From assembly GCA_017431405.1 (NCBI GenBank), contig JAFRLB010000031.1, positions 1-33,057 on the forward strand: 33,057 nt of DNA. The letters are read 5' to 3'. Each line of letters opens with the position of its first letter. Position 1 is the stretch's first letter. The notes beneath the pieces were generated by a model. That model saw only the letters and a program-made list of their open reading frames with translations, searched no databases and was not told the DNA's origin. Positions 8,795-29,268 of this stretch are shown in pieces. Both the position numbers and the translations under genes were made by a program. The DNA comes from Erysipelotrichaceae bacterium. GTDB taxonomy: Bacteria > Bacillota_I > Bacilli_A > Erysipelotrichales > Erysipelotrichaceae.

Positions 8795-9343
8795 ATGAAA
8801 GGTATTTTAATTGTTTTACTGGTATTGGTCGTTTTATGTGCTATATACGCAATTTCCACCAATAACAAATTTGTATCTTTGCAGAATAAAATTGAAGAGG
8901 CTTTCTCTACCATGGATGTATATCTGGTAAAAAGAGCTGAATTGATTCCAAATCTTGTCGCTACAGTCAAGGGCTATGCAAAGCATGAAGGAGAAACCTT
9001 GGAAAAGGTTATCGCTGCCAGAAACGCTGCCAAGACAACAGGTGAAAAGATGGCTGCTGAATCAGAAATCACTTCTGCAGTAAGAAGTGTCTTTGCCTTA
9101 GCTGAAGCTTATCCGGAATTAAAGGCTAATACAAACTTCTTAAATCTGCAGGATCAGTTATCATCAATTGAAAATGATGTTGCTACTTCACGCCGTTACT
9201 ACAATGGCGTTGTCAGACAGTACAATACCATGTTACAGTCATTCCCAAGCAATATCATTGCCGGCATGAAAAACCTGGTTAAACAGCCTTTATTTGAAGT
9301 AAGTGACGATTCACAGCGTCAGAATGTAAAAGTTGAGTTCTAA
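8795..9343 (+). CDS. lemA: LemA family protein
   Basis: A 182-residue protein with one N-terminal membrane helix (GILIVLLVLVVLCAIYAI), then the LemA helical bundle: VSLQNKIEEAFSTMDVYLVKRAELIPNLVATVKGYAKHE, ENDVATSRRYYNGVVRQYN and a late FPSNIIAG. The core sits outside or at the membrane face. LemA is widely conserved with no settled biochemical role, and is often found next to a DUF2207 membrane protein, as here. The next gene begins two bases after its stop, so they form one operon. Confidence 0.93.
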   Translation: MKGILIVLLVLVVLCAIYAISTNNKFVSLQNKIEEAFSTMDVYLVKRAELIPNLVATVKGYAKHEGETLEKVIAARNAAKTTGEKMAAESEITSAVRSVFALAEAYPELKANTNFLNLQDQLSSIENDVATSRRYYNGVVRQYNTMLQSFPSNIIAGMKNLVKQPLFEVSDDSQRQNVKVEF

Positions 9344-9345
9344 AA

Positions 9346-11244
9346 ATGCGTAAGATTCTTAATGTACTGTTAGCTGTCTTCATAGCTTTGGGAGTCTGTT
9401 GTCTTAACACTTCTGAAGCCTATGCCAGAGAAGGCTTTGAAATTAATAAACATACAGTAGAAATGGATGTCCATGAGGATGGTACCATTCTGGTTACGGA
9501 AACAATGGATGTTGTTTTTACTTCGTCAACTCTTCATGGCATATACGTTAACATCCCAAAGAAATACAACATGAAATGGGAATTAAACGGACAGACATAC
9601 TATAAGGAATATGTATTCCCGGTACGTAAGGTCAAGGTCTTATCTGATCACAACTATGAAAAGGAAGATTTTGAAGAGGGTGTTCAGATCAAGATAGGTG
9701 ACCCGGATTCTTTCGCAAATACATATGAAACCTATAAGTGGCAGTATGAGATCGTAACCAGAGATCTGGATCTGGAGAATAGACAGATGCTGTTCATGAA
9801 CATTGTTTCAGGCAAATGGGATACGGTAACTCATTCTGTTGATTTCCTAATAAACATGCCAAAGGAATTTAACCGCAGCAAGCTTCTGTTTGACTCACCG
9901 GTTGGCGTAACCAGTGAATCAAAGGATGCTCTGTCAATTGTGGTTACCGGCAAGACGATCAGCGGTTCTTATAACGCTGACTTACAGCCTGGTGATGCAA
10001 TTACGGTTCAGTTATCTCTGGATGATGATTATTTCGAATTCATAAGTAATGATAAGTATGGCTTATCAGCCATGATCATAAGTGGAATCTCCACAATCAT
10101 AATGGCTACCGCATTCTTCTTATTCGGCAAGGATGATCCGTTAGTTGAAAGTGTTGAATTCCATGCTCCTAGCGGCATGACCAGTGCTGAAGTAGGTGTC
10201 ATCATTGATGGCATTGCCAATGACGGTGATGTCGTATCACTGATCCTTGACTGGGGCAGAAGAGGATTAATAAACATCGTTGATGAAGAAGAATCTCTTA
10301 CCTTGGTTAAGAAGGCAGATCTGGAGCCTACAGCCCGTTCATATGAAAGAGTAATGTTTGACAAGCTGTTCAGTAATGGCGATGAAGTCGACATTGAATC
10401 ATTAAGTGAAGTATTCTATACCACGATCCACCGTGTTGAGAAAATGCTGGATAAGCACTTTGATTCAAATAAGCGTCGTCTGTTCACAAGAAGATCAGTT
10501 GCCTTACAGTCCGCAATGACGATTCTCTCATTCATACCAATCGGCGTTGCCTCATTCATGCTGTATTACAACTATTACTATGATCTGCCATTGTCATTCA
10601 TCTGGGTGGCCATTGATGCCATTACGATCGTAGCCTTCAGTTCCATCATGGTATATCTTGACAGCAAGAGATACGTTCACAAGTGGTATACCAAGACACT
10701 GTTATATGTTCTGTCACTGGTATTATTTACCATTCCGGTAATCATTCTGGTATTCATTACCGTAAGAACACATACGAGCATCTGGTTCTCGTTTGTCTGC
10801 ATCTTATTCAATATCGTAGTTATTGTCATAACCCGCTTCATGAAGAAGCGTACTGATTATGGCAACCAGGTATTGGGTCAGGTAATCGGTTTGAGAAACT
10901 TCATCATCGTTGCTGAAGAAGACAGATTACAGGAACTTGTTGATGAAAACCCATATTACTTCTATGACATACTGCCATTTGCCTATGCTTTAGGCTTAAC
11001 GGATGTCTGGAACGATCATTTCAAGAAACTTACCATTCAGCCTTGTGAGTGGTACTCAAGCAGACTGTATGGCAATCCATACTACATGACTAATTCATTG
11101 ACCAGTCAGATGCACGTCATTGAAAGAGCAATGACCAGTGCCCCGGCCCCAGAGTCATCAAGCGGTGGCTTCTCAAGTGGCGGCGGTTCATCAGGAGGCT
11201 TCTCCAGTGGCGGCTTCGGCGGTTCAGGAGGAGGTGGATGGTAA
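9346..11244 (+). CDS. DUF2207 domain membrane protein
   Basis: A 632-residue protein that starts with a signal peptide (ILNVLLAVFIALGVCCLNTSEAYA, residues about 4-27). An extracellular beta-rich DUF2207 domain follows (about 30-225; FEINKHTVEMDVHEDGTILVTETMDVVF). There is a membrane helix near 240-260, a cytoplasmic winged-helix-like stretch, two to four further helices around 385-500, and a C-terminus ending in Gly/Ser-rich repeats (GGFSSGGGSSGG, closing GGGGW). The Gly/Ser tail is typical of the family and is coding, not a DNA repeat element. Its role is unknown; the tight link to lemA suggests joint action at the cell envelope. The ATG at 9346 overlaps no ribosome-binding site of its own beyond the lemA end, so coupling is likely. 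Confidence 0.9.
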   Translation: MRKILNVLLAVFIALGVCCLNTSEAYAREGFEINKHTVEMDVHEDGTILVTETMDVVFTSSTLHGIYVNIPKKYNMKWELNGQTYYKEYVFPVRKVKVLSDHNYEKEDFEEGVQIKIGDPDSFANTYETYKWQYEIVTRDLDLENRQMLFMNIVSGKWDTVTHSVDFLINMPKEFNRSKLLFDSPVGVTSESKDALSIVVTGKTISGSYNADLQPGDAITVQLSLDDDYFEFISNDKYGLSAMIISGISTIIMATAFFLFGKDDPLVESVEFHAPSGMTSAEVGVIIDGIANDGDVVSLILDWGRRGLINIVDEEESLTLVKKADLEPTARSYERVMFDKLFSNGDEVDIESLSEVFYTTIHRVEKMLDKHFDSNKRRLFTRRSVALQSAMTILSFIPIGVASFMLYYNYYYDLPLSFIWVAIDAITIVAFSSIMVYLDSKRYVHKWYTKTLLYVLSLVLFTIPVIILVFITVRTHTSIWFSFVCILFNIVVIVITRFMKKRTDYGNQVLGQVIGLRNFIIVAEEDRLQELVDENPYYFYDILPFAYALGLTDVWNDHFKKLTIQPCEWYSSRLYGNPYYMTNSLTSQMHVIERAMTSAPAPESSSGGFSSGGGSSGGFSSGGFGGSGGGGW

Positions 11245-11245
11245 A

Positions 11246-11332
11246 ATGAAAAAGGTTTTATCGATCCTCGTAATTATGGCGCTGTTGTTGGCTGGCTGCA
11301 GTCCTGATAAGGATGTTGCCCAGGCTTCATAG
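11246..11332 (+). CDS. Tiny lipoprotein (28 residues), possibly interrupted by a stop
   Basis: ATG at 11246 lies one base after the DUF2207 stop, with GGAGGAGGTGG about 7 bases upstream. The peptide MKKVLSILVIMALLLAGC is a complete lipoprotein signal with lipobox LAGC (C18). The mature form would be only CSPDKDVAQAS. After the TAG at 11330 the same frame runs on for 13 codons (GVSRKGFTTHTSW) to a TAA at 11372, just before the terminator. Either the lipopeptide is really this small, or an ancestral 42-residue protein has acquired a TAG (one change from CAG). The larger upstream-extended frame is only the DUF2207 coding sequence read out of frame. I recognise no homologue. Confidence 0.6.
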   Translation: MKKVLSILVIMALLLAGCSPDKDVAQAS

Positions 11333-11372
11333 GGTGTCAGCAGAAAAGGCTTTACAACTCATACATCATGGT

Positions 11373-11396
11373 AAACGGAACAACTGTTCCGTTTTT
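11373..11396 (+). terminator. Terminator of the lemA-DUF2207-lipoprotein operon
   Basis: AAACGGAAC, loop AACT, GTTCCGTTTTT: a perfect 9-base-pair stem with a U-run. It starts right after the second in-frame stop (TAA at 11372) of the small lipoprotein frame. Confidence 0.92.
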
Positions 11397-11418
11397 CAAT
11401 GTAAAAAAGCCTCGTTTG

Positions 11419-11451: not shown

Positions 11452-12297
11452 ATGAAACAGAAGATAATTGATGTAATTGCGGTATTATTTGGTAATTTTC
11501 TTTTAGCTGTTTCGGTAGCTTACTTTGTTCTTCCGTATGACATCCTTTCCGGTGGGGTAGCGGGAATTTCTGTCATAACCAAGGCGGTATTTAACTGGAG
11601 CCCGACCCTGGTAATTGATGTTCTGGTAGTCGGCCTGTTCATTGTCGGAGCCATTTTCTTTGGTAAGGAATTTGCCTTGAAAACAGCCCTCAGCAGCATA
11701 GCCTATCCGATCTTTGTAGAAATACTTGTAAGATACCCGCTAAACCTGGAAGTAGATGAGTTACTTTCATGTGTCTTTGGCGGTGTCATTGCCGGTATCG
11801 GCATGGGCATTGCCTTCCGTCATAATGCTTCAACAGGCGGAACAGACATTATTTCCTTACTGGCTAACAAGTATCTGGGCATTTCCGTTTCTTCAGGAGT
11901 AATGTTCACTGACGGCATCATTACCTTATTGGGTTTATTGACCTATGGCTTACAGGATGTATTTCTGGGAGTCGTATACATTTACAGCTCATCAATGGCA
12001 ATCAACAGGGTCATGGTACCAAAGACTGATGAAGCCATAGCTGTTTATGTCATTACCAGTGAATTTGACAAGGTGTGTGACTTCATACACTATACCTTGG
12101 AAAGAGGCACGACCATTCTGGATGGCCGTGGCGGCTATACCAATGAAAAGAAGGATATCATCCTGACAGTTGTTTCAAAAAATCAGTATGTCAAACTATC
12201 AAGTTTCATTGATAAGACCGATCCGTATGCCTTTGTCATTGTATCTGATGCCAAGGAAATCAAAGGTGAGGGATTCTCATACGATTTCCGCGTGTAG
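11452..12297 (+). CDS. YitT family membrane protein (DUF161 plus DUF2179)
   Basis: A 281-residue protein. The N-terminal part (about 1-180) has five or six membrane helices with the YitT signatures: a LPYDILSGGVAGIS segment, FGGVIAGIGMGIAFRHNASTGGTDIIS and YKYLGISVSSGVMFTDG-like spacing. The C-terminal DUF2179 domain (about 195-281) is soluble and alpha/beta (YVITSEFDKVCDFIHYTLERGTTILDGRGGYT, DPYAFVIVSDAKEIKGEGF). Function is not established. A YitT-family member (yvjA) also sits near ftsEX in Bacillus, so the linkage is conserved. The start at 11452 follows a purine-rich GGGGGAGAAGAGGAAG. An upstream in-frame ATG would lie inside the previous terminator. Confidence 0.88.
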   Translation: MKQKIIDVIAVLFGNFLLAVSVAYFVLPYDILSGGVAGISVITKAVFNWSPTLVIDVLVVGLFIVGAIFFGKEFALKTALSSIAYPIFVEILVRYPLNLEVDELLSCVFGGVIAGIGMGIAFRHNASTGGTDIISLLANKYLGISVSSGVMFTDGIITLLGLLTYGLQDVFLGVVYIYSSSMAINRVMVPKTDEAIAVYVITSEFDKVCDFIHYTLERGTTILDGRGGYTNEKKDIILTVVSKNQYVKLSSFIDKTDPYAFVIVSDAKEIKGEGFSYDFRV

Positions 12298-20804: not shown

Positions 20805-21161
20805 GGGGTCGTCTTGGTTTCGACAGGGCGTAGTTGGATTCGGATAGCAGTGGCGTTATTCACCTCACGAATAAAACTTTAAAAATAACTGGCAATAGTC
20901 AATTATCATTCGCTGCTTAATTAACCGACTTTAGGTTTCGCAGCCGTCAACCATTGTTTAGCTTCTGGGCTATGGATTGGTGTCAAAGACAGAAGATAAG
21001 TATTAATGATTTCTAATAAATTAGTAACGAAAACCTATTAGATAAGCAGAAACTACATCTTGTTCATCATGAGGTTTCTGCTAAACGAGATGAACTAAAC
21101 TGTAGAAGTCTGAATGTGGGACACGTTTTGGACAGGGGTTCGATTCCCCTCGGCTCCACCA
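20805..21161 (+). ncRNA. ssrA: Transfer-messenger RNA (tmRNA), CCA encoded
   Basis: Starts GGGGTCGTCTTGGTTTCGAC and ends with the T-arm GGGGTTCGATTCCCC and CGGCTCCACCA. The first seven bases pair with CGGCTCC to form the acceptor stem (one G-U and one U-G pair). The resume site TAACTGGCAA matches the Bacillus subtilis resume context, so the tag frame is GGC AAT AGT CAA TTA TCA TTC GCT GCT TAA (20891-20920). With the tRNA-borne alanine the tag is A-GNSQLSFAA. Length is 357 bases with the CCA encoded. tmRNA with SmpB rescues ribosomes on messages without stop codons and marks the product for proteolysis. smpB lies at the left end of this window. Confidence 0.97.
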
Positions 21162-28947: not shown

Positions 28948-29268
28948 TTGTTAGAAACAAAAATATACATTGGTTTAAATGATTCGCAAACTTTAAAACA
29001 GGAACATGATACATCCAAGTATGTCAACATTCTGAAACATGTCTGTTACAGTTATCATGTACCGTTTTCCTTTGCCGTTCAGCAAGGTGGTTATCTGCAT
29101 GAAAATGGTGATTATACCGAAGAGGTTAGTCTGATGCTGACACTGATTGACGTACCTAAGGAAACCATCAATGAAATAGCCGGAGACTTATGTGCATTCT
29201 TTCATCAGGAATCAGTACTCATTACTGAGAGTGAAGTAAAGGCCTACTTTATTAATGAAAAACTATAA
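28948..29268 (+). CDS. Hypothetical protein, TTG start
   Basis: A 106-residue soluble protein beginning LETKIYIGLNDSQTLKQEHDTSKYVNILKHV. The alternating strands and helices (VPFSFAVQQGGYLHENGDYTEEVSLMLTLIDVPKETINEIAGDLCAFFHQESVLITESEVKAYFIN) suggest a small ferredoxin-like alpha/beta fold. DUF3574-type proteins share the TKIYIGL-like start, but I cannot assign the family. It starts with TTG, 8 bases after GAGGT, and its end runs 20 bases upstream of the flavodoxin-fold reductase, so they are likely co-expressed. Confidence 0.6.
   Translation: MLETKIYIGLNDSQTLKQEHDTSKYVNILKHVCYSYHVPFSFAVQQGGYLHENGDYTEEVSLMLTLIDVPKETINEIAGDLCAFFHQESVLITESEVKAYFINEKL

Follow-up and report, generated by a model that had tools for sequence, protein, structure and literature searches.

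A probable nonsense allele of a small, genus-conserved lipoprotein gene in the lemA-DUF2207 operon of an Erysipelotrichaceae bacterium

LemA and DUF2207 genes are reported to adjoin in other bacteria, where LemA has been associated only loosely with membrane restructuring, and a DUF2207 protein with tolerance of stress and the formation of biofilms (PMC12631010). Such a pair is present in the window, by which we mean the whole stretch of 33,057 nucleotides analysed here, where DUF2207 lies 3' of lemA and is followed, one base past its stop codon, by a short frame with lipoprotein features. An earlier note on this DNA had singled out this frame as the third gene of the operon, a position that is confirmed by the Pfam matches of both upstream genes (Table 1). 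The frame from 11246 to 11374 translates as MKKVLSILVIMALLLAGCSPDKDVAQAS, a stop, GVSRKGFTTHTSW and a second stop. The first of these stops, a TAG, closes the frame after 28 residues, 11 of which form the mature part, and 13 further in-frame codons follow, the last one for W, before a TAA at 11372-11374. Translation and folding reproduced every element of the earlier description, from the full lipoprotein signal and the 11-residue mature part through the TAG, the 13 codons and the TAA to the terminator. The first bases of the terminator stem are the last two of this TAA, and the region 11366-11400 folds with -13.4 kcal/mol (z -5.8); the terminator is absent from the output of a consensus terminator scan. 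The mechanically called yitT ORF begins at 11368, upstream of the stem, and the relatives have in common the later ATG given in Table 1. The window also carries a tmRNA gene at 20805-21161, with the tag peptide GNSQLSFAA.

Table 1. Features at the lemA-DUF2207 locus (positions of the window)
Feature	Position	Strand	Evidence
lemA, first gene of the operon	8795..9343	+	Pfam LemA PF04011, E 1.7e-54
DUF2207 membrane protein, Gly-rich tail ending in Trp	9346..11244	+	Pfam PF09972 (DUF2207), E 8.7e-12; PF20990 (DUF2207_C), E 2e-26
Shine-Dalgarno match AGGAGGTG within Gly codons of the DUF2207 tail, 9 nt 5' of the lipoprotein ATG	11229..11236	+	
Truncated lipoprotein frame, 28 codons and TAG; predicted signal 1-17, lipobox LAGC, Cys18	11246..11332	+	
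In-frame TAG, found in the window only	11330..11332	+	Codon comparison with 8 relatives
Segment predicted to be lost through the TAG: 13 codons (conserved G, R, SW) and TAA of the longer frame	11333..11374	+	
Intrinsic terminator, 9-bp stem and five-T run	11373..11396	+	Fold and sequence
YitT/DUF2179 gene, downstream of the terminator	11452..12297	+	Likely start ATG 11452, from comparison with relatives

Bacterial lipoproteins, the substrates of signal peptidase II, combine a positively charged N-terminus and a hydrophobic stretch with a lipobox that ends in Cys. In the window the corresponding features are MKK, a hydrophobic stretch and LAGC, the column of the Cys being invariant in all eight relatives. 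These relatives are the other sampled members of the genus, all of which are among the 36 of 60 genomes searched (the window's own included) that yielded DUF2207 matches. A genus-wide search for DUF2207 gave a match in 9/9 genomes. In each of the eight the DUF2207 stop is followed after 0-1 nt by an uninterrupted frame, 41-42 codons long; the presence of an ORF at this place in orthologous operons, to which the earlier note had looked, was thus borne out in all eight. Lipobox and Ser-Trp end are retained in every intact frame, and an alignment of the eight shows M1, K2, K3, L13, L15, C18, A27, G30, R33, S41 and W42 to be invariant. Judged by this open frame with lipobox and -SW end in 8/8 relatives, the ORF at 11246 is not a product of chance. 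A whole-length family model gave full-length matches in all nine genus genomes, with an inner stop in that of the window (G000) alone. The eight relatives have in common a length of 41-42 aa, a place directly behind DUF2207, and the G, R and C-terminal SW; the window frame ends after codon 28 and lacks the conserved G, R and SW. Because its translation past the TAG matches the whole model in full (E 2.3e-20), the window frame is, on sequence comparison, a truncated copy of this genus-conserved small lipoprotein.

We noted in addition that, in 9/9 genus genomes, the stretch of Gly codons in the tail of DUF2207 contains AGGAGG or AGGAGGTG, 7-9 nt 5' of the lipoprotein start. Given this embedded Shine-Dalgarno sequence, translation of the lipoprotein is likely coupled to that of DUF2207. 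At a threshold of E<=1 Pfam LPAM_1 is matched by all eight intact relatives, the strongest match having E 4.6e-4; the single member for which cut-offs are given scores below them at 17.6 bits versus 20. That member, the first of the eight scanned against Pfam, passes no Pfam cut-off; in NCBIfam, against which two of the eight were scanned, nothing exceeded its cut-off, the best match (E 2.1e-4) lying on the signal. The mature part has no above-cut-off family in the Pfam and NCBIfam scans that were run.

The codon aligned with the TAG of the window is TAT in three relatives, TAC in one, GTC in three and ATA in one. CAG, which the earlier note had suggested looking for in place of the TAG, was found in none of the eight. 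Nor is base 11330, named there as the one to check, the base that differs: in the sister species, whose DUF2207 is 97% identical, the codon is TAT, so that the change lies at its third base, 11332. Of the options in the note the one supported is that a nonsense mutation has recently struck a protein of 42 residues, in that the frame is uninterrupted in 8/8 relatives and the stop occurs in the window alone of nine genus genomes. We therefore regard the ORF, with good though not full confidence, as a nonsense allele of a 41-42 aa lipoprotein gene, third in the lemA-DUF2207 operon of one gut Erysipelotrichaceae genus. In the window's genome translation would then stop at the TAG and the conserved half would not be made; the gene has probably been lost recently, or is polymorphic.

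The foremost alternative is a sequencing, assembly or consensus error in one genome whose organism has the intact gene, which we consider unlikely. It would take no more than one wrong base in one draft metagenome-assembled genome (105 contigs, 83% complete, 4.8% contaminated), and the TAG call is that of the assembly. Against it stands the comparison with the sister species, in which an inner stop was met in one of 31 window gene frames, that of the lipoprotein. These 31 frames comprise 30 of the 40 ORFs of the window and the lipoprotein frame, four of them aligned below full length; the other ten ORFs, mostly opposite-strand overlaps, were excluded as unlikely genes. Further, the three 1-nt gaps relative to the sister all fall 5' of likely gene starts, two of them for the gene at 29255 and one for yitT, the spacer of which is one base longer in the sister than in the window.

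Between window and sister, the 41 sense codons of the lipoprotein frame differ by 7 synonymous changes and 3 that are non-synonymous (dN/dS 0.11); 9 changes lie in the 84 nt 5' of the TAG versus 1 in the 39 nt 3' of it. With a dS between the two of 0.19 for DUF2207 and 0.29 for the lipoprotein frame, about 3.7 to 5.7 changes would be expected after the TAG if the segment had been unconstrained on one lineage since the split. The chance of at most one change is 0.12 to 0.02 with one lineage free and 0.005 to 0.0002 with both free. This calculation, made after the fact, lends weak support to the stop being a recent event, and the one change after the TAG would fit an assembly error or continued translation equally well. 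Across the genus, synonymous exceeds non-synonymous change in the lipoprotein frame among the measurable pairs. In the mature part dN approaches dS in several pairs (for example 0.49 and 0.53 for the window and G005, and 0.73 and 0.89 for G007 and G002), dS having reached saturation in many other pairs, and hence selection on the mature part between species is, by these estimates, not strong.

Continued translation would imply a read-through or suppression of the TAG that is private to the window's genome and still gives some 42-residue product. Stop read-through was among the options of the earlier note, and the scarcity of changes behind the TAG speaks for it; we consider it very unlikely. 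There is no stop at this codon in any of the eight relatives, and the fold around the TAG shows nothing unusual (z +1.1). RF1 was detected above its cut-off in the window's genome, and TAG is the stop of 11 of 30 window genes and of 41 of 190 ORFs of two relatives. No CUA anticodon was found among 27 tRNA matches (25 loci scanned, covering all 27), an incomplete set from a genome that is 83% complete. The sole PylS match reached 18.9 bits versus a cut-off of 178.15, and in a control 13/14 genomes likewise gave matches, one of them above the cut-off. On these grounds programmed read-through and a reassigned TAG were both rejected; TAG is an ordinary stop in this genome. RF2 was above its cut-off in 9/9 genus genomes. 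A second, weaker match of the RF1 search contained an inner TAG, which we take to reflect over-extension of the match, the RF2 model covering that gene free of stops over positions 14-353. Least probable of all is the option that the 28 residues are a true precursor, be it of a lipopeptide or of an enterococcal-type signal-peptide pheromone. The lipobox and the hydrophobic signal speak for it. Against it stand the 41-42 residues encoded in 8/8 relatives, whose C-terminal half, absent from the 28-residue product, keeps Gly, Arg and Ser-Trp invariant, and the seemingly ordinary signal, the whole-length model matching 242/244 family genomes at E<=1.

Returning to the nonsense allele, and to the intact gene that it implies, we noted a narrow distribution. 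Run against 239 family genomes at E<=0.01, a model of the mature part matched the nine genus members and none of the 230 outside the genus. Among the matches of the whole-length model listed outside the genus, mostly the signal peptide is covered, and five extend to position 36-41, within frames of 312-355 aa. Out of 30 DUF2207 loci, 9 from the genus and 17 from other genera were read, and four from another family (L029-L032) were left out. No lipoprotein ORF of the genus type lies behind DUF2207 in these 17 other-genus loci or in seven further ones (L088-L094), L090 offering only 112 bases behind DUF2207 and the matched protein lacking the usual DUF2207 tail in L022, L023 and L092. In L011, L088, L089 and L091 a gene that is YitT-like by eye follows DUF2207 without a lipoprotein ORF; thus, from gene order, the DUF2207-YitT junction in which the lipoprotein sits occurs without it as well. 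That the genus gained the gene would be a simpler reading than loss elsewhere. No relatives of DUF2207 were confirmed in viral contigs. Three genus members (G005, G006 and G008) have second, diverged DUF2207 copies (L035, L034 and L036, respectively) that end in Trp (SSGW), and no small lipoprotein was found behind them. Locus L014 (G025), from another genus, also has a lipoprotein gene behind DUF2207. It is a longer and different one, comes with a ribosome-binding site of its own, starts 45 nt past the opening base of the DUF2207 stop codon, and by eye does not belong to the family described here.

A Trp as last residue is rare in these genomes. Across 220 kb from two relatives, none of the 190 ORFs with a length of 120 aa or more ends in it; among the 31 of the window one does, namely DUF2207. 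This terminal Trp of DUF2207 recurs in 9/9 genus genomes, in 15 of the 17 other-genus loci and in 6 of the 7 further loci. The lipoprotein frame too ends in Trp in all nine genus genomes, that of the window only beyond the TAG. That adjacent genes, DUF2207 and the lipoprotein, both end in this rare residue suggests a common partner, the tie between the two consisting of position and the common Trp only. A Gly-rich, Trp-ended DUF2207 tail was observed in 6/7 of L088-L094, including a Nitriliruptorales genome (L093); no explanation for such a tail was found in the literature passages at hand.

To judge by signal and lipobox, the intact product would be a peptide that lies outside the membrane and is anchored there by lipid. 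Made by translation coupled to DUF2207, it would be cut by signal peptidase II and its lipid would hold it at the membrane's outer face, where it might serve as a cell-surface accessory of LemA-DUF2207, perhaps by way of the C-terminal Trp that it has in common with DUF2207. As a tentative extension, to which we attach rather low confidence, the LemA-DUF2207 system may have in the intact lipoprotein a third component that was born in this genus, in the stretch from the DUF2207 stop to the terminator. It would use Gly codons of DUF2207 as its ribosome-binding site and be recognised, together with DUF2207, by one partner of both Trp tails; the window would then represent a lineage that is losing it. 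The stop itself is ordinary, be it a nonsense allele or a base error. The value of the locus lies in the intact family, a lipoprotein of 41-42 residues that is short enough to escape annotation and is tied to the LemA-DUF2207 pair, and in the terminal Trp common to both proteins, which is a possible recognition tag and as such testable.

Among tiny lipoproteins, LptM acts in outer-membrane assembly. The genus lipoprotein resembles it in size and in a weak match to NCBIfam NF047847 that is confined to the signal peptide (residues 1-18; E 0.064 and 0.011, with 13.4 and 15.8 bits versus a cut-off of 27.7), and differs in its mature part, which has no match to this family. To the enterococcal sex-pheromone lipoprotein precursors of the cAD1 type (PMC7074142) the likeness is the lipoprotein signal peptide, whereas the intact genus relatives have a conserved mature part. 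In the literature consulted we found no small lipoprotein as third gene of LemA/DUF2207 pairs, and recognised no paper as describing that of the genus. There is also the likeness to the LemA/DUF2207 gene pairs themselves: the window has lemA and then DUF2207, with a Gly-rich DUF2207 tail ending in Trp. It departs from them in the small lipoprotein that stands here as third gene, with a mature part found in this genus only.
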